Of a stretch of 64,000 nt of DNA, positions 26,532 through 35,474 are shown one piece after another. The stretch is taken from contig CANLQL010000002.1 in the NCBI GenBank assembly GCA_947493265.1, positions 620,001 through 684,000 of the forward strand, read 5' to 3'. The translations under genes and the position numbers were made by a program. Below the pieces are notes generated by a model that made no database searches, was not told the DNA's origin, and worked only from the letters and a program-made list of their open reading frames with translations. Position 1 is the first letter of the stretch. The number at the start of each line of letters is the position of its first letter. The stretch comes from an uncultured Litoreibacter sp. GTDB lineage: Bacteria; Pseudomonadota; Alphaproteobacteria; Rhodobacterales; Rhodobacteraceae.

Positions 26532-27751
26532 TGGACGGGGGCAACAAGTTTGACGACGCTCTGACGGGCGAACAGAAGATCCGCAATTTCAACATCAATT
26601 TCGGGCCTCAGCACCCGGCAGCCCATGGCGTGTTGCGTCTTGTGCTGGAGTTGGACGGCGAAATCGTCGAACGCTGCGATCCGCATATTGGGCTTTTGCA
26701 TCGCGGTACCGAAAAGCTGATGGAAAGCCGGACCTATCTGCAGAACCTGCCGTATTTCGACCGGCTGGATTATGTGGCTCCGATGAACCAGGAGCATGCC
26801 TGGTGCTTAGCGATTGAAAAGCTGACGGGCACCGAAGTGCCGCGTCGTGCATCGCTGATCCGGGTGCTTTATTCCGAGATCGGGCGCGTGCTGAACCACC
26901 TGTTGAATGTGACTACGCAGGCTTTGGATGTGGGGGCTTTGACGCCGCCGCTCTGGGGGTTTGAAGAACGCGAAAAGCTGATGGTGTTTTACGAACGCGC
27001 CTGCGGTGCGCGTCTTCACGCAGCTTATTTCCGACCCGGAGGCGTACATCAGGACCTGCCGAACGAATTGCTTGATGATATTGAAGCCTGGGCGGATCAT
27101 TTCCCCAATGTGATTGATGATATCGACGGGCTGCTCAGCGATAACCGCATCTTCAAGCAGCGCAACGCCGATATCGGCATCATCACTGAAGATGACATTC
27201 AAAACTGGGGCTTCTCCGGTGTCATGGTGCGGGGGTCCGGTCTGGCTTGGGACCTGCGTCGGGCGCAACCTTATGAATGCTATGACGAGTTTGAATTCCA
27301 AGTGCCAGTCGGCAAAAACGGCGATTGCTTTGATCGCTACCTGTGCCGGATGGAAGAGATGCGCCAATCGACGTCCATCATCAAGCAGGCAATTGCCAAG
27401 CTGCGCGCACCTGAAGGGCAGGGCGATGTCATGGCGCGCGGCAAGATGACCCCGCCAACCCGTGGGGAGATGAAAACCTCCATGGAAGCGCTGATCCACC
27501 ACTTCAAGCTTTACACCGAAGGCTTCCACGTCCCAGAGGGCGAGGTTTACGCCGCGGTTGAAGCGCCCAAGGGCGAGTTCGGCGTCTATCTGGTCGCGGA
27601 TGGAACCAACAAGCCCTACCGCACCAAAATTCGGGCACCGGGGTTCCTGCATTTGCAGGCCATGGACTATATCTGCAAAGGCCACCAATTGGCGGATGTC
27701 GCCGCAATTATCGGCACGATGGACGTCGTGTTTGGGGAGATTGATCGGTGA
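26528..27751 (+). CDS. nuoD: Complex I subunit D (49 kDa, quinone site)
   Basis: 407 aa. With NuoB it forms the quinone-binding cavity. The conserved [20 protein letters not shown] is near residue 26 (His at the quinone head), then HRGTEKLME and [11 protein letters not shown] (Tyr that hydrogen-bonds quinone in homologues). The C-terminus ends with DVVFGEIDR, as in the family. Two ATGs are in tandem (26528 and 26531); the first overlaps the nuoC stop. Its own stop overlaps the GTG of the next small gene. Confidence 0.97.
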
Positions 27752-28128
27752 AAGGGATAATCCTAATAGGTCTGATGGCGACGGCATCTTCCGCTGTGGC
27801 TGATGACGGTTGGATTTTGTACGCTCCGCCACCCGGACAGCTGGTAGGAAATACCGCAGGCGCTGAGTACCTTCAGGAATTGCTTCGCGGGTACGAGGAT
27901 ACCTTCTATGCCGTCGAGGATGCCGCTTCGAACGATCCCAATGCGCTCAAAGAGCAATGTGTTCAGCGCCTGCGCAGTGCGGCGCAGCAGATTGGGTACG
28001 CATTACAAGGTTTCAGCTACGACCTCTCATTGGCCGTGGAGGGCAAGTACCCTCCACTTGCGGGTGTCGAGTGCAGGATTTCGGCCAGCAGCGACCTCAG
28101 CGTAAATATAGAAACGAGAGAGAAGTAA
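27748..28128 (+). CDS. Small exported protein inside the nuo operon, unknown function
   Basis: 126 aa from a GTG that overlaps the nuoD stop (GTGA). A signal peptide ([20 protein letters not shown]; cleavage after Ala-Val-Ala, about residue 18) sends it to the periplasm. The mature part is about 107 aa with just two cysteines (in EQCVQ and VECRI), which could form a disulfide. No domain is recognised. nuoE begins immediately after its stop codon. It is the first of four exported two-cysteine proteins in this operon. Confidence 0.75.
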
Positions 28129-29250
28129 ATGCTCCGCCGTCTTTACCACGACCAACCCGAGACATTTGCTTTTACCAAGGCCAATCAGGCTTGGGCGGAG
28201 GCTCAGATCACGAAATACCCTGAAGGACGTCAGGCGTCTGCGATTATTCCGTTGCTTTGGCGTGCGCAGGAACAAGAGGGCTGGTTGACCCGTCCCGCCA
28301 TTGAGCACATCGCAGAGATGCTAGGCATGGCCTATATTCGCGCGCTCGAGGTGGCCTCCTTCTACTTCATGTTCCAACTGCAACCTGTGGGCTCGGTCGC
28401 GCATATCCAAGTGTGCGGCACGACGTCTTGCATGATTTGCGGGGCTGAAGATCTGGTTGCCGTGTGCAAAGAGAAGATCGCCGCCAAACCGCATCAGTTG
28501 TCAGCCGATGGCAAGTTCAGCTGGGAAGAGGTTGAATGCCTTGGATCATGCGCGAACGCACCGATGGCACAGATCGGCAAAGACTACTACGAAGACCTGA
28601 CCTCCAAACGAATGGGCGAGATTATTGACGAGTTGGCCGTTGGCAATGTGCCGACGCCCGGTCCGCAAAATGGCCGCTATGCAGCGGAGCCTTTGAAAGG
28701 TCTGACATCGCTGACCGAATATGACAGCGGCAAGACCAAATATAATGCGTCTGTGCAGCTGGCCACTGATATTGGCGATACGGTCAAGCGCATCGATGGT
28801 ACGGAAGTGCCGCTGCTTACGCCTTGGCAGGGTAAAACAGCGAAGAAACCTGTCGCTAAAAAACCTGCCGCAAAGACGCCCGCGAAAAAAGCGGTGCCTT
28901 TGACCAAAGCTGAGGCGGAAGCCAAGAAAACGGCCAGACCCAAGACCGGGACGGATGCAAAGGCCGCAAGTAAGCCAGCGGCCTCAAAAGCGTCCAAGGC
29001 GAGTTCTGATGGTCCCGAGCAGCTGAAAAAGGCGCGCGCTGGTGGTGCAGATGACCTCAAGCTGATCTCAGGTGTTGGGCCGAAGTTGGAGCAAACGCTC
29101 AATGAGATGGGCTTTTGGCATTTTGATCAGATCGCGAAATGGAAAAAAGCGGATGTCGCTTGGGTCGACAGCCGGTTGAAATTCAAGGGTCGGATCGAAA
29201 GAGACGATTGGATTAAACAAGCGAAGACACTCGCAAAGGGTGCAAAATGA
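28129..29250 (+). CDS. nuoE: Complex I subunit E with a C-terminal helix-hairpin-helix extension
   Basis: 373 aa; classic NuoE is about 160-240 aa. Residues 1-165 are the thioredoxin-like 2Fe-2S subunit that binds Nuo[15 protein letters not shown] (C-x4-C, about residue 98) and [10 protein letters not shown] (C-x3-C, about residue 137). After about residue 230 comes a Lys/Ala/Pro-rich linker (235-295), then a compact domain (296-373) with [19 protein letters not shown], a helix-hairpin-helix sequence of the type seen in nucleic-acid-binding proteins. The same domain ends the protein at 29305-30090. The extension is known in Rhodobacteraceae NuoE; its job is not. Confidence 0.95.
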
Positions 29251-29303
29251 CAAATATCGCGCTGAAACAAGCGTTTACGACCAGAAATGGACAGGGAGAG
29301 TGA
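29247..29303 (+). CDS. Possible 18-codon relay ORF between nuoE and its paralogue
   Basis: ATG at 29247 overlaps the nuoE stop as ATGA and has AAGGG 6 bases before it. The frame encodes [18 protein letters not shown] and stops at 29303, 1 base before the ATG of the next gene. Such a length is too short for any fold. It may only carry ribosomes on to the next start, or be chance. Confidence 0.35.
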
Positions 29304-29304
29304 C

Positions 29305-30090
29305 ATGAACCAGAATTCCGGAGGACTGACTTGCGCGATAGGCTGTTTGCTGATTGCAGGTCTAGGCGGCGCGATGGTCGCTGCCATGCTGTGGTTTTTA
29401 GCTGATTACGCAATTATCGCGGCGATTTTCTTTGGTGGTATTGCCGCCATCCTCGCGTTTTTCTTTTTGAACTGGGCGTTCTGCCGTGGGTTGCCCGCGG
29501 TTAACGAGGCAACAGTAGAAACACCATCGGTGCAAGCTGAACCTGTGAAAGCTGCGGCGGCACCTGCCGCGTCTGCCCCTGTTGCAACGTCAACGCCTGC
29601 CTCGTTGGTTTCGGACGTGCCGGATGCGAAACCCGCGCCGAAAGCTGCTGCGGCACCCGCTGCGAAAAAACCAGCAGCCAAAAAACCAGCGGCAAAGAAA
29701 CCGGCTGCCAAGAAGCCTGCTGCGAAGAAAGCGCCAGCGAAAGCGGCAACGGAGAAACCCGCTGCAAAGCCAGCGGCCAAGAAGGCTGCAAAGCCAGTCG
29801 CCAAAGATGGCAAGCCGCCCATGCTGAAGAAAGCGCGTGCGGGTGGTGCTGATGATCTGAAACTGATCAAAGGCGTTGGTCCGAAGCTGGAAGGCACTCT
29901 GAACGAATTGGGCTTCTGGCATTTCGATCAGATCGCTGGCTGGCGCAAGAAAGAAGTTGAATGGGTCGATGAGCGTCTGAAGTTCAAAGGCCGCATCGAT
30001 CGTGATGAATGGATCAAGCAAGCCAAAACGCTTGCGAAGGGTGGCTCAACCGAGTTCGCAAAGCGCGTCAAAAAAGGCGACGTGTATTGA
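29305..30090 (+). CDS. Membrane-anchored paralogue of the NuoE C-terminal domain
   Basis: 261 aa. Two hydrophobic segments near the N-terminus (about residues 12-35 and 38-62) are followed by a cytoplasmic or periplasmic Ala/Pro/Lys-rich tract (65-175), including five PAAKK units, then a domain (about 176-248) that matches the NuoE tail at 62 of 73 positions by my count: [42 protein letters not shown]. It ends with a basic KRVKKGDVY. No complex I subunit has this layout. ATG at 29305 with GGGAGAG upstream. It suggests that the domain works both on NuoE and at the membrane. Confidence 0.8.
   Translation: MNQNSGGLTCAIGCLLIAGLGGAMVAAMLWFLADYAIIAAIFFGGIAAILAFFFLNWAFCRGLPAVNEATVETPSVQAEPVKAAAAPAASAPVATSTPASLVSDVPDAKPAPKAAAAPAAKKPAAKKPAAKKPAAKKPAAKKAPAKAATEKPAAKPAAKKAAKPVAKDGKPPMLKKARAGGADDLKLIKGVGPKLEGTLNELGFWHFDQIAGWRKKEVEWVDERLKFKGRIDRDEWIKQAKTLAKGGSTEFAKRVKKGDVY
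29656..29730 (+). repeat. Five PAAKK protein repeats (15-bp units, diverged in DNA)
   Basis: The five units encode Pro-Ala-Ala-Lys-Lys, but their codons differ (CCC/CCA/CCG/CCT, AAA/AAG). The repeat is old and held at the protein level, in contrast to the base-identical array at 11813. Confidence 0.85.
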
Positions 30091-30102: not shown

Positions 30103-30330
30103 TTGAGTAACGACAGCAATAAGTCCGGTCCGCCGCGTGGGAGGATCATCGCTTTGATGATCGCGGCGACCGGCATTGTCTATGTCGTCGTTCAGGTGTT
30201 CGGGTCGATCTATGGCTGGTCCAACCGGGCTATGGCATTTTTCGACCTTGCGGCTCTGGCCATGTTTGGTTGGGCGCTTGTCGAAGTGTTTTTGATCTGG
30301 CGGAACCGCCAGGATGATAAGGAAAGCTAA
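30103..30330 (+). CDS. Small two-helix membrane protein (DUF5337 type)
   Basis: 75 aa from a TTG at 30103. It has a short polar start, two membrane helices (about residues 14-33 and 41-64) and a charged tail (WRNRQDDKES). Length, position before nuoF and the DLAALAMFGWALVEVFLIWR helix fit the DUF5337 proteins found in Rhodobacteraceae nuo operons. Its function is unknown. It may be a supernumerary membrane subunit of complex I or an assembly aid; this is inference from position only. Confidence 0.75.
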   Translation: MSNDSNKSGPPRGRIIALMIAATGIVYVVVQVFGSIYGWSNRAMAFFDLAALAMFGWALVEVFLIWRNRQDDKES

Positions 30331-30333
30331 GCG

Positions 30334-31620
30334 ATGCTGGCAGATAAAGACCGGATCTTTACCAATCTCTATGGGATGCATGACCGGACCCTGAAAGGGG
30401 CCAAGGCGCGTGGTCACTGGGATGGAACAGATAAGCTGATCAAGGCGGGCCGGGATTCTATTATCGAGACGATGAAGGCCTCTGGCTTGCGCGGACGCGG
30501 CGGCGCTGGGTTTCCTACTGGTTTGAAGTGGTCTTTCATGCCCAAGGAAAGCGACGGGCGTCCCGCGTATCTGGTTGTGAATGCCGACGAGTCCGAGCCA
30601 GGCACCTGCAAAGACCGCGAAATTATGCGCCATGACCCGCATACACTGATTGAAGGCTGCCTGATCGCCAGCTTCGCGATGAATGCCAATGCCTGCTACA
30701 TCTATATCCGTGGCGAGTATATCCGCGAGAAAGAAGCGCTGCAGGCTGCGATTGATGAATGCTACGAGGCCGGACTTGTTGGGCCGAACGCCGCCAAATC
30801 CGGATGGGATTTTGACATTTACCTGCATCACGGCGCAGGCGCCTATATTTGCGGCGAGGAAACCGCGCTTCTGGAAAGCCTTGAGGGCAAGAAGGGGATG
30901 CCACGGATGAAGCCGCCATTTCCGGCGGGTGCTGGGCTGTATGGCTGCCCCACAACTGTGAACAACGTTGAAAGCATTGCTGTTGTGCCGACGATCCTGC
31001 GTCGCGGCGGGGACTGGTTTGCGAGCTTCGGGCGTCCGAACAACACCGGCACAAAGCTTTTTGCTGTCTCCGGCCATGTGAACAACCCGTGTGTGGTTGA
31101 AGAAGCCATGAGCATTTCCTTTGAAGAGCTGATCGAAAAGCATTGCGGTGGCATTCGCGGTGGCTGGGACAACTTGAAGGCTGTGATCCCCGGCGGGTCT
31201 TCCGTGCCCTGCGTGCGCGGTGAGAACATGAAAGACGCGATCATGGATTTCGACTATCTGCGAAATGATCTGCAGTCCGGTCTCGGGACAGCCGCGGTCA
31301 TCGTGATGGATCAGGACACCGATATTATCAAAGCGATTTGGCGCTTGGCGAAGTTCTACAAGCACGAGTCCTGTGGTCAGTGCACGCCATGTCGCGAAGG
31401 CACCGGCTGGATGATGCGGGTGATGGAACGCCTAGTGACGGGCGAGGCAGGCGTTGAGGAAATCGACATGCTGCTGGACGTCACCAAACAGGTTGAAGGT
31501 CACACGATCTGTGCGCTGGGCGACGCGGCGGCGTGGCCCATTCAGGGCCTGATCCGCAATTTCCGCGACGAGATCGAAGACCGGATCAAGCACAAACGCG
31601 GCTTGGTCGCAGCGGAGTGA
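30334..31620 (+). CDS. nuoF: Complex I subunit F (NADH, FMN, cluster N3)
   Basis: 428 aa. NADH-oxidising subunit. FMN/NADH site: [20 protein letters not shown] (about residues 50-69) and [19 protein letters not shown] (about residue 170). The N3 4Fe-4S ligands are [12 protein letters not shown] (three Cys, about residue 347) and [10 protein letters not shown] (fourth Cys, about residue 391). ATG start 3 bases after the DUF5337-type gene. Confidence 0.97.
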
Positions 31621-31625
31621 TCTAG

Positions 31626-31865
31626 GTGAGTTTCCTCAAGCGCATATGGGATGGAAGTCTGAGCCTGCTTGCCGGGCTTGTTGTTCTGTTCGTGGCGCTT
31701 GTTCCGGCGTGGTTCACCCATATCGCGGCCACAGCAGACCTGGCCCCTGCCTGGGTCTATGTCTGCGCGGTGTTGCTGTCTTTGGGTTCAGCCACGATTG
31801 CATTTGATTTTCTGCGCAAGGGCATGCGGGGCATTTCTCCGGCGCGGTCACGGAGGCGCGGATAA
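31626..31865 (+). CDS. Small two-helix membrane protein in the nuo operon
   Basis: 79 aa from a GTG at 31626. Two membrane helices (about residues 12-32 and 41-62), then an Arg-rich tail (RSRRRG) that should stay in the cytoplasm. No named family. The stop overlaps the start of the next lipoprotein gene by 1 base (TAATG). Position between nuoF and nuoG suggests a link with complex I. Confidence 0.65.
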   Translation: MSFLKRIWDGSLSLLAGLVVLFVALVPAWFTHIAATADLAPAWVYVCAVLLSLGSATIAFDFLRKGMRGISPARSRRRG

Positions 31866-32197
31866 TGCGGATACTTCTCTTGCTTTCGATGATCTTGGCA
31901 CTTGCGGCATGCGGCAACCGCAACCCGGCACGCAATGCGACGACCAATGTTGAATTGCCCTTTGAAACCAAGCTGGACCGGGGCGAGGACCCGCGTGATA
32001 TCGCAGTCCGGGTTGAGCATGAAGGCAACGGTCTGGAAGAAGTTCGCGAAAGCGTTCGGTTCGAGGCGACGAAATATTGTCTGCTCAACTTCGGTGGCTC
32101 TGACACGGACTGGGACATTGATCCTGCGACAGATGATTGGGCGTTCACCCAAGACGGCGATGAGTTAATTTTCACAGCCAGATGTACGGTGCGGTGA
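31865..32197 (+). CDS. Small lipoprotein in the nuo operon, two extra cysteines
   Basis: 110 aa. Signal II sequence MRILLLLSMILALAACGN with lipobox Leu-Ala-Ala-Cys, so the mature Cys is at residue 16. The next residue is Gly, not Asp, so outer-membrane sorting is possible. Two more cysteines sit in ATKYCLLNF and FTARCTVR, suited to one disulfide. The ordering (helix with Cys, acidic loop, final beta-strand with Cys) resembles that of the protein at 35103. It overlaps its neighbours by 1 base on each side. Confidence 0.72.
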   Translation: MRILLLLSMILALAACGNRNPARNATTNVELPFETKLDRGEDPRDIAVRVEHEGNGLEEVRESVRFEATKYCLLNFGGSDTDWDIDPATDDWAFTQDGDELIFTARCTVR

Positions 32198-32685
32198 TGC
32201 AGCAGCCAGAGGGACATCATCTTGCTGAGCTGAATGTCGGGCGTCTTCTTACCGCCCCGGACGATCCGCTTGTGGACGAGTTCATGCGCAACATCGACCG
32301 CATCAACGGGCTTGGCAAACGTATGCCGGGCTTCGTTTGGATGATGGAAAGTGAAGGGGCCGAAGGGAACACCGGAACCAAGATCGATGGTGACGAAAGA
32401 TATGTACCGAACCTGACGGTTTGGGAAGATGTGGCCTCGCTGGAAACCTTCGTTTGGGGAACGGTTCACAAGCAGTTTTACGAACGTCGCCGCGAATGGT
32501 TCGAAAAGCTGGAAATGCACTTTGTCATGTGGTGGGTGCCGGTTGGCCATAACCCAACGCTTGAAGACGCATTGAAACGTCTTGACGCAAGACGTGAACA
32601 CGGAGATAGCGAAAACGCCTTCGGGTGGGATTATCTTAAGCAGGCAAAACTGCATAAGACCCATTCCTGTAAGGAGGATGCGTAA
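32197..32685 (+). CDS. DUF3291 domain protein
   Basis: 162 aa. The DUF3291 fold is a dimeric alpha-beta barrel-like protein related to heme-degrading monooxygenases; function is unproven. Seen: LAELNVGRLLTAPDDPLVDEF at the start, PGFVWMMESE, NLTVWEDVASLETFVW, and a His/Trp-rich region with WWVPVGHNPTLEDA. I start at the ATG (32197) that overlaps the lipoprotein stop (TGATG). No signal peptide. DUF3291 genes are usually not in nuo operons, so its place between nuoF and nuoG is unusual. Confidence 0.82.
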   Translation: MQQPEGHHLAELNVGRLLTAPDDPLVDEFMRNIDRINGLGKRMPGFVWMMESEGAEGNTGTKIDGDERYVPNLTVWEDVASLETFVWGTVHKQFYERRREWFEKLEMHFVMWWVPVGHNPTLEDALKRLDARREHGDSENAFGWDYLKQAKLHKTHSCKEDA

Positions 32686-33086
32686 TGATCCGTTCTATGA
32701 CACTCACCCTTGTTTTATTGGCCTCAACAGCGGCAGCTGATGCCCGTGTAGCCTTGCAAGACAGCAAAACCATTGAAGATGGTCTGGTTATCGTGGCCAT
32801 CGGTGACGCGTTGCGCAAAAATTGCGACACGATCACGCCGCGTGTGTTCCGCGCCTATGGCTATGCGCGCAAGCTGTACAATCAGGCCCGGGCCCTGGGC
32901 TATTCAGACGATGAAATTGACGCCTATCTCGACAGCGAAGCCGACAAGGCGCGCGTTCGTGGAAAAGCGGGTGCCTACCTTGCCAAACAAGGTGTGAAAA
33001 AAGATGACCCGGCCAGCTACTGCGCGGCGGGACAAAGTGAAATTGAACGCAATACGCAAATTGGCGTTCTTCTGAGGACGAAATAA
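32685..33086 (+). CDS. Exported DUF5333-type protein in the nuo operon
   Basis: 133 aa. A signal peptide ([20 protein letters not shown], cleavage about residue 18) sends it to the periplasm. The mature protein is mostly helical ([38 protein letters not shown]) with two cysteines (KNCDT, SYCAAG). This matches the DUF5333 proteins common upstream of nuoG in Rhodobacteraceae. The start overlaps the DUF3291 stop by 1 base, and nuoG starts 4 bases after its stop. Function unknown. Confidence 0.82.
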
Positions 33087-33090
33087 ACCT

Positions 33091-35106
33091 ATGTCTGACC
33101 TGCGAAAAATCATCATTGACGACACTGAGGTAGAGGTTGATCCGCGTTTGACGCTGATCCAGGCCTGCGAAGAGGCGGGGGTTGAAATCCCGCGCTTCTG
33201 CTATCACGAGCGTCTGACGATCGCAGGCAACTGCCGGATGTGTCTGGTGGAAGTTGTTGGTGGCCCGCCGAAACCTGCGGCGTCCTGTGCGATGCAGGTC
33301 AAGGATTTGCGCCCTGGCCCAGAGGGTGCGCCACCTGTGATCAAAACGAACTCGCCGATGGTCAAGAAGGCCCGCGAAGGGGTGATGGAATTTCTGCTGA
33401 TCAACCACCCGCTGGATTGCCCGATCTGTGATCAGGGTGGCGAATGCGATTTGCAAGACCAGGCAATGGCTTACGGCGTGGACTTCTCACGCTTCCGGGA
33501 GGCCAAACGTGCCTCGACGGATCTGGATCTGGGTCCGCTGGTTGAGACCCATATGACGCGCTGCATTTCCTGCACGCGCTGTGTGCGGTTCACGTCCGAG
33601 GTCGCGGGGATTACCCAGATGGGCCAGACCGGACGCGGCGAGGATGCCGAAATCACCTCCTACCTGGGGGAGACGCTGAATTCAAACCTGCAGGGCAATA
33701 TCATTGACCTGTGTCCAGTGGGGGCGCTGACCTCCAAGCCTTATGCGTTTACCGCCCGCCCGTGGGAGCTGACGAAGACCGAAAGCATTGATGTGATGGA
33801 CGCGCTTGGTTCCAACATTCGCATCGACACCAAGGGCCGCGAAGTGATGCGGTTTTTGCCGCGCAACCATGATGGTGTGAACGAGGAGTGGATTTCCGAC
33901 AAAACTCGGTTTGTCTGGGACGGCCTACGTCGCCAACGGCTTGATACGCCGTATATTCGCGAAAACGGAAAACTTCGCAAAGCCAGCTGGCCCGAAGCCT
34001 TGTCGGCCGCCGCTGCGGCGATGTCGGGCAAGAAGGTCGCGGGCCTTGTTGGCGATTTGGTTCCAGTTGAAGCGGCTTATGCCTTGAAACAGCTGATCGA
34101 AGGCCAAGGCGGTGTCGTGGAATGCCGCACCGATGGGGCCAAGCTGCCAGCAGGCAATCGCGGTGCCTATGTCGGCACGGCGAAGATCGAAGATATCGAC
34201 AGTGCCAAAGCGATCATGCTGATCGGGTCCAACCCGGCTGTAGAAGCCCCGGTTCTGAATGCACGAATTCGCAAGGCCTGGAGCGAAGGTGCCAATATTG
34301 GCGTTATCGGTGAGAAGGTCGATTTAACCTATGAACACAATTACTTAGGCGCAGGACCTGAGACAATTACGGAACTTTTGGGCCGCGATCATGCGGACGT
34401 TAGCAAAATCCCATCGCTGATCATCGTAGGTCAGGCGGCGTTGACCCGGGCTGACGGCGAAGCGGTGCTTGCGGGCGCAATCGCGTTGGCGGAAAGCACG
34501 AAATCGGGCCTCCTGATCTTGCACACCGCCGCTGGGCGGGTTGGTGCGATGGATGTCGGGGCTACCGCTCCGGGTGGGATCAGCGACGTTCTGGGTGCAG
34601 AGGTGATCTACAATCTTGGCGCGGATGAGGGCGATATCCCATCCGGTCCGTTCGTGATTTATCAAGGAAGCCACGGCGATAGGGGTGCGCATCGCGCCGA
34701 TATTATTCTGCCGGGTGCAGCCTACACCGAAGAACAAGGCTTGTTCGTCAACACCGAAGGACGGCCCCAATTGGCGCTGCGGGCCGGGTTTGCACCGGGT
34801 GAGGCCAAGGAAAACTGGGCGATCCTGCGGGCACTTTCCGCTGAAATGGGCGCAACGCTGCCCTTCGACAGCATCGCGCAGCTGCGCAGTGCTTTGGTGG
34901 CAGAGGTTCCGCATCTGGGTCAGGTGGACCACGTCGTTGAAAACGAACTTGCGCCATTGCCAAAAGGTAAGATTGACAAAGCGGCCTTCGGATCAGCCAT
35001 TTCTGATTTCTATCTGTCCAACCCGATCGCACGGGCCAGCACTTTGATGGCTGAACTCAGCGCGAATGCGAAAGCGCGCTCTGGTACATCGATGGCGGCT
35101 GAATGA
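33091..35106 (+). CDS. nuoG: Complex I subunit G (75 kDa, Fe-S clusters N1b, N4, N5)
   Basis: 671 aa. N-terminal ferredoxin domain with a 2Fe-2S site ([22 protein letters not shown] has three of the ligands; SCAMQV the fourth), then the His-Cys cluster ([18 protein letters not shown], about residue 108), and the 4Fe-4S ligands [14 protein letters not shown] (about residue 154) and [11 protein letters not shown] (about residue 207). The rest is the molybdopterin-oxidoreductase-like domain, lacking a cofactor site, as in other Nqo3/NuoG. The stop overlaps the next ATG by ATGA. Confidence 0.97.
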
Positions 35107-35474
35107 TGCGTCCATTGGCCATCATAGCCACAGGCCTTGGGGCCTGCACGCCGACAGGTGACGTTCTGCGCGATTATCAGGGGGCAAACCTTGAAATTAT
35201 CGACGCAGATCTGGTCGCTGTGAAGGTGGCGATGGCCGGTGCAGAGCTGGAAACAGACGTGCAGGCCTATGCAGATTGCGCGGCGGCACAATACGCATTG
35301 GATGAAGGCTACGGATTTGCGCGAAACATCCGCAGAAAAGTGGATCAAGAGGGTAGTATCTGGCGCGGCGATGCGGTTTACACGCTGTCAAAGTCGCTGC
35401 CGCGCGGCGAAACAACAATAGACGCTGAAGTTGTGGTGTCCGGCTGTTTGGATGCCGGCATCCCAACGGTCTAA
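35103..35474 (+). CDS. Small probable lipoprotein in the nuo operon, unknown function
   Basis: 123 aa. The short signal ([18 protein letters not shown]) contains Leu-Gly-Ala-Cys, a good lipobox, so lipid attachment is likely. Two further cysteines are in YADCAAAQ and VSGCLDAG near the end, probably a disulfide. No domain recognised; the pattern of one helix-Cys and one final-strand Cys is like that of the lipoprotein at 31865. It is read from an ATG overlapping the nuoG stop; a second ATG follows 3 bases later. Confidence 0.7.

Follow-up and report, generated by a model that had tools for sequence, protein, structure and literature searches.

Why should an operon for respiratory complex I encode the same C-terminal domain twice in succession? 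In a 64,000-nucleotide stretch of DNA from an uncultured Litoreibacter sp. (contig CANLQL010000002.1, positions 620,001 to 684,000; hereafter the window), this domain ends both the complex I subunit NuoE and a 261-amino acid (aa) membrane protein encoded directly downstream. Sequence, fold and gene place show the latter to be the orthologue, in this phototroph, of protein-O, a subunit located between the reaction centre (RC) and the light-harvesting complex 1 (LH1) ring of Dinoroseobacter shibae (8yy9; PMC12079452). Furthermore, purifying selection keeps protein-O in species of the genus that have no reaction-centre genes, and the published photosynthetic role is thus at most part of the story. 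As the best explanation of the whole we tentatively propose, at somewhat less than an even chance, a general membrane protein of the nuo operon with a docking-tag domain that has been exchanged between NuoE and protein-O.

Identity of the membrane-anchored neighbour of NuoE

Residues 7-261 of the window protein align with residues 7-239 of protein-O at E 1.2e-34, the C-terminal end included. Its predicted structure displays two helices (8-32 and 37-60) and a C-terminal domain, all modelled with confidence, joined by a linker of low confidence; this is the architecture of two membrane helices, linker and domain that an earlier note had read from the letters. The hairpin shape matches 8yy9_O with a probability of 1.00, a match resting on probability, template modelling (TM) score and Z-score, and hairpin identity to D. 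shibae protein-O amounts to 28-29%. Cys10 and Cys60 of the window protein, a putative bonded pair, fall at the positions of the Cys10-Cys59 disulfide that is formed in D. shibae (PMC12079452). The gene place between nuoE and nuoF is also the same, and for D. shibae this place, as well as the domain in common with NuoE, has already been published (PMC12079452). The D. shibae RC-LH1 structures are 8yy9, 8yz2 and 9jpb, for which the authors propose a role of protein-O in assembly or as a quinone channel (PMC12079452); the 9km0 chain is identical in sequence to protein-O of the 8yy9 series, and 9lts_A represents a further D. shibae entry. Congruent with a phototrophic lifestyle, the host genome of the window contains two Photo_RC genes of the pufL/pufM type. 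The locus is arranged as follows.

28129..29250, plus strand: nuoE, 373 aa (open reading frame (ORF) list, Pfam, NCBIfam)
29032..29244, plus strand: NuoE tail domain, residues 302-372 (BLASTP, subtype comparison)
29305..30090, plus strand: gene of the protein-O relative, 261 aa (sequence and structure comparison)
29326..29484, plus strand: two-helix membrane hairpin, residues 8-60, with Cys10 and Cys60 (predicted structure, alignment)
29485..29823, plus strand: flexible Lys/Ala/Pro-rich linker of the protein-O relative (low predicted local distance difference test score, pLDDT; charge analysis)
29824..30087, plus strand: C-terminal helix-hairpin-helix-like domain of the protein-O relative (BLASTP, model, structure search)
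30103..30330, plus strand: DUF5337 protein between the protein-O gene and nuoF (PF17272, 82.1 bits, cut-off 27)
30334..31620, plus strand: nuoF, named from sequence and operon position, no family search having been run on it

NuoE is of the long type (NCBIfam PRK12373, 611.7 bits against a cut-off of 514), with a 2Fe-2S thioredoxin-like core at residues 24-169, an extension to about residue 237, and then the linker and tail domain, the latter without the last ~15 residues found in protein-O. Both ORFs lie where the earlier note had placed them; they are separated by 54 bases, with the DUF5337 gene and nuoF coming next, and the longest ORF for the protein-O relative, of 267 aa, starts at 29287.

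Protein-O with and without reaction-centre genes

To place the locus in its family we used 150 genomes, one per genus, of which 57 have Photo_RC and 147 have NuoE. The nuoE-nuoF stretch was obtained for 146 genomes and 145 were counted, leaving out G130 (contig break, two pieces), G093 (contig end) and G028, G120 and G139 (no NuoE match). An ORF between nuoE and nuoF, the only place examined, was scored as protein-O if it held at least one membrane helix, called by our own hydropathy rule, together with the domain; three one-helix genera were hence counted. Protein-O was present in 93 of the 145 genera and the NuoE tail in 118, with both features in 82, the tail only in 36, protein-O only in 11 and neither in 16. 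The earlier note had taken absence of the membrane protein from most relatives with the NuoE tail as a sign against a functional pair; the pair survives this test, since 82 of the 118 have it. On a tree of the genera, built with FastTree from NuoE and NuoF only, the two features changed in the same direction in 4.1 and in opposite directions in 4.0 of 17 independent pairs.

These counts bear on the possibility that protein-O is a membrane-anchored complex I accessory, the tail of which meets that of NuoE, with RC-LH1 binding as a second use of the hairpin. Its gene place in the 93 genera fits this, as do the common domain and the exchange between the two genes described below. However, the NuoE tail and protein-O are gained and lost independently, and the abstract on P. 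denitrificans complex I, a species that was not searched for protein-O, names NDUFS4, NDUFS6, NDUFA12 and a methyltransferase and no protein-O-like subunit (PMC11522691). We therefore consider an accessory subunit rather unlikely, though worth keeping in mind.

Turning to lifestyle, protein-O occurs in 43 of the 55 phototroph genera versus 50 of the 90 without reaction-centre genes (Fisher p 0.007). On the tree, phototrophy and protein-O changed in the same direction in 5.4 and oppositely in 1.4 of 13 pairs (median p 0.22), and because p over the pairings runs from 0.008 to 1, their association is unproven after tree control. PufX exceeded its cut-off in 24/43 phototrophs with protein-O and 6/12 without, thus no complementarity of the two was seen.

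Within the genus of the window, 20 of 21 genomes had a match at E 1e-20, 19 had both domain copies (the two exceptions are 57 and 82% complete), and 12 had Photo_RC. Seven species without reaction-centre genes (G150-155 and G163, 99% completeness) have protein-O with its hairpin. For the three close ones among the RC-less species, the ratio of non-synonymous to synonymous substitution rates (dN/dS) was 0.04-0.06 in the hairpin and 0.10-0.14 in the linker; the protein-O domain gave 0.00-0.15 and the NuoE tail 0.00-0.06. The claim of the earlier note that the pair is kept by selection hence holds for these three congener pairs. More distant RC-less pairs yielded hairpin values of 0.07-0.10 and phototroph pairs 0.05-0.21, with silent sites near or at saturation. 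Ten pairs were analyzed, where saturation left four hairpin, linker or domain values (164/168, 165/168, 164/165) and the NuoE tail of 150/163 uncomputed; the 'NuoE' row of G162 proved to be its L21 and was removed before the genus tree and dN/dS. With 50 of the 90 RC-less genera having protein-O, and with purifying selection acting on it in RC-less congeners, protein-O probably serves a more general purpose than photosynthesis alone.

The same data oppose the notion that protein-O is in essence an RC-LH1 subunit, with RC-less copies as leftovers of recent photosynthesis loss and an incidental shared tail. Beyond its retention and selection where reaction-centre genes are absent, protein-O is encoded within the nuo operon and its occurrence is not complementary to that of PufX, and we deem this explanation unlikely.

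The cysteines of the hairpin are also informative. Among 92 protein-O hairpins (G060 left out), 59 have both, 32 neither and a single one only one (Fisher p 6e-24), and the pair is accordingly no strict criterion for protein-O, 32/92 being without both. Nine of 10 independent pairs on the tree change together and none oppositely (p 0.004), and the distribution spans phototrophs (22 both, 20 neither) and others (37 both, 12 neither, 1 mismatch). As the cysteines come and go together, in both lifestyles, the disulfide of D. shibae looks real and not a photosynthetic trait. Separately, in the 42 phototroph hairpins PufX accompanied 16/20 without the cysteine pair and 7/22 with it (Fisher p 0.002), which may reflect kinship only.

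The shared domain, its carriers and its probable exchange

The tails of NuoE and the 261-aa protein, a domain of ~75 residues, are identical at 62 of 74 positions by BLASTP (E 2e-45; the earlier note had counted 62 of 73), ruling out chance likeness. Omitting Met and Trp, the same codon is used at 20 of 55 identical residues, against 22.7 predicted by the codon usage of six window genes. Silent sites are thus saturated, which excludes a recent duplication of the domain and agrees with the earlier suggestion of an old pair with many silent differences. The isolated domain model (pLDDT 91.5) resembles the helix-hairpin-helix domains of RadA (Z 7.5) and NusA AR2 (Z 7.3), both Z-scores being middling, while the NuoE tail stays below the Pfam HHH_5 gathering cut-off (13.6 vs 27 bits); the helix-hairpin-helix type named in the earlier note is thus a candidate assignment. 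Neither model was matched by Foldseek at E 0.001 or better, and the protein-O relative and its domain had no match among PHROG phage families at E 0.001.

A search of the whole host genome with E up to 10 returned three matches only: NuoE, the 261-aa protein and the C-terminus of ribosomal protein L21 (239 aa; L003:1525-2244, minus strand), where the domain follows a Lys/Ala-rich linker, and the L21 copy named in the earlier note is thus real. The same C-terminal domain is included in the NCBIfam models of L21 (PRK12278), S2 (PRK12311) and the phasin PhaH (NF045508). Across the class, the protein-O domain was matched at 1e-6 in 19 of 192 genomes, and several of these belong to families other than that of the window. 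Between nuoE and nuoF, ten genera have an additional ORF that lacks membrane helices and ends in the domain (L037 (2469-3269), L045, L054, L057, L076, L082, L107, L113, L147, L162), and the N-terminal parts of several appear phasin-like by eye.

One rival idea is that nucleic acid or the ribosome is the target of the domain together with its Lys-rich linker, whereby the pair would anchor translation or the nucleoid at the respiratory membrane. RadA as the best structural neighbour, the domain on L21 and in the S2 and L21 models, and the basic window linkers (net charge +17 and +13) speak for it. The Lys-rich character noted earlier is however not general: the 92 protein-O linkers range from -35 to +34, with 44 at -5 or lower and 16 at +5 or higher, the NuoE linkers are about even (31/115 at -5 or lower, 33/115 at +5 or higher), and the domain itself has almost no net charge (median -1 to -1.5). 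With protein-O linkers more often acidic than basic, NuoE linkers even and the domain near neutral, a nucleic-acid tether is weakened, and NusA AR2, the other near neighbour, was by entry title solved with a protein, SuhB. We regard this idea as quite improbable. The tether proposed in the earlier note survives as a possibility in a general form, and the membrane anchor of the domain on one protein is supported.

A one-residue indel defines two domain subtypes, of which the shorter occurs on both proteins of the window. Within the genus, 15/19 NuoE tails belong to the longer subtype and 4/19 (G000, G156, G158, G160) to the shorter, and for protein-O 11/19 belong to the shorter and 8/19 to the longer (G150-155, G163 and the phototroph G157); family-wide, the longer is commoner on both. 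The shorter subtype of the window's NuoE tail is that on protein-O of phototrophic congeners, and this tail is 76-80% identical to the protein-O domains of G164-169 versus 65-72% to their NuoE tails. Forcing the 19 NuoE tails into one clade costs 49 log units (p of the approximately unbiased test, p-AU, 0.003), by which two cleanly separate lineages of NuoE and protein-O domains are rejected within the genus. Thus the NuoE tail of the window is of the protein-O type, and the genus is not monophyletic in its NuoE tails. We infer gene conversion between the neighbouring genes, read as old because silent sites are saturated. In the 82 genera with both, domains of the same genome were more similar than permuted pairs (0.687 vs 0.647, standard deviation 0.004, without tree control). 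At the nuo loci of G003 and G094 (L038, L127) the two domains are 94 and 97% identical, as if recently homogenised.

Five small genes also lie among the nuo genes of the window (27748-28128, 31865-32197, 32182-32685, 32685-33086 and 35103-35474); two are DUF3291 and DUF5333, three lack a Pfam match at E 0.01, and the N-termini of some, judged by eye, suggest export.

A possible docking tag, and known systems

In the mechanism we propose, the two-helix hairpin of protein-O would pack into a large membrane complex, in phototrophs and presumably in the organism of the window RC-LH1, as shown for D. shibae (PMC12079452) and, by title and chain of 9wqv, for Rhodovulum sulfidophilum. Going by the topology in PMC12079452, the hairpin would hold the helix-hairpin-helix-like domain on a long flexible tether at the cytoplasmic side. 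Kept under purifying selection without reaction-centre genes, protein-O would function beyond photosynthesis, and the domain has been swapped with NuoE during evolution, presumably through gene conversion. It most likely represents a protein docking tag, which could allow complex I, protein-O-bearing membrane complexes and some ribosomes to share one cytoplasmic partner or to bind each other.

Several points weigh against this proposal. The docking step itself is an inference. Convergence could possibly make the NuoE tail of the window O-like, and the domain tree of the genus has three long branches. Exchange is only occasional, because a NuoE tail most often has its nearest match in the NuoE tail of another genus (49 of 82 genera), with the own protein-O in 7, another protein-O in 19 and ties in 7. 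The NuoE tail and protein-O are uncoupled in gain and loss (4.1 vs 4.0 of 17 pairs); 36 of 118 tail genera have no protein-O there, and in 11 genera protein-O accompanies a NuoE that has no tail. Phototrophs have protein-O more often, and a photosynthetic role is compatible with the data. The RC-less group would be counted too large if reaction-centre genes had gone with a plasmid or escaped an assembly, and the distant dN/dS pairs have saturated silent sites, with phototroph hairpins up to 0.21.

A more specific scheme makes the NuoE tail and protein-O two ends of one docking system, whose matching helix-hairpin-helix-like tags would join complex I to the membrane complex of protein-O, where in phototrophs a complex I/RC-LH1 assembly would hand light-made quinol to reverse electron flow, and in non-phototrophs another quinone enzyme would be held; we view it as a long shot. 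Finally, the obligate functional pair competing for one partner, as pictured in the earlier note, is highly improbable: protein-O does occur in 82/118 genera with the tail versus 11/27 without (Fisher p 0.007), and both copies in 19/21 genomes of the genus, but the association vanishes on the tree, where the traits change the same way as often as oppositely. On the whole that note is partly supported, having missed the kinship with a reaction-centre subunit.

Protein-O entered the literature in 2025 as a subunit of the reaction centre, without known function or origin. New here are its presence at the nuo locus in RC-less genera and its selection in RC-less congeners, domain sharing and gene place having been published; a literature search of limited extent retrieved no report of protein-O in non-phototrophs. 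That protein-O is widespread and selected at the complex I locus even where reaction-centre genes are absent suggests that a general membrane protein of a respiratory operon was recruited, or is used jointly, by the reaction centre. RC-less species allow simple tests, unblurred by photosynthesis, and a physical tie of complex I and RC-LH1 becomes a concrete, testable idea.

Among known systems, the NCBIfam fusion models of L21, S2 and PhaH have the C-terminal domain in common with the window proteins, the N-terminal parts being unrelated. Protein-U of the Rhodobacter sphaeroides RC-LH1 (7vy2_U) has a library chain of 48 residues that does not contain the C-terminal domain, and its sequence is described as quite distinct from that of protein-O (PMC12079452). 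Chain a of 9wqv, from the Rhodovulum sulfidophilum LH1-RC and labelled '41 kd complex i subunit', is similar to the window protein over residues 11-247, hairpin and domain included, with a library chain of 110 residues against 52 for 8yy9_O; our literature search found no paper on this entry. Protein-O of D. shibae has been seen in RC-LH1, and that of the window's organism is a candidate RC-LH1 subunit; the window's Lys/Ala/Pro linker is longer (119 vs 92 residues) and its domain is the subtype one residue shorter. The two agree in hairpin, cysteine pair, long flexible linker, C-terminal domain, gene place and phototrophic host.
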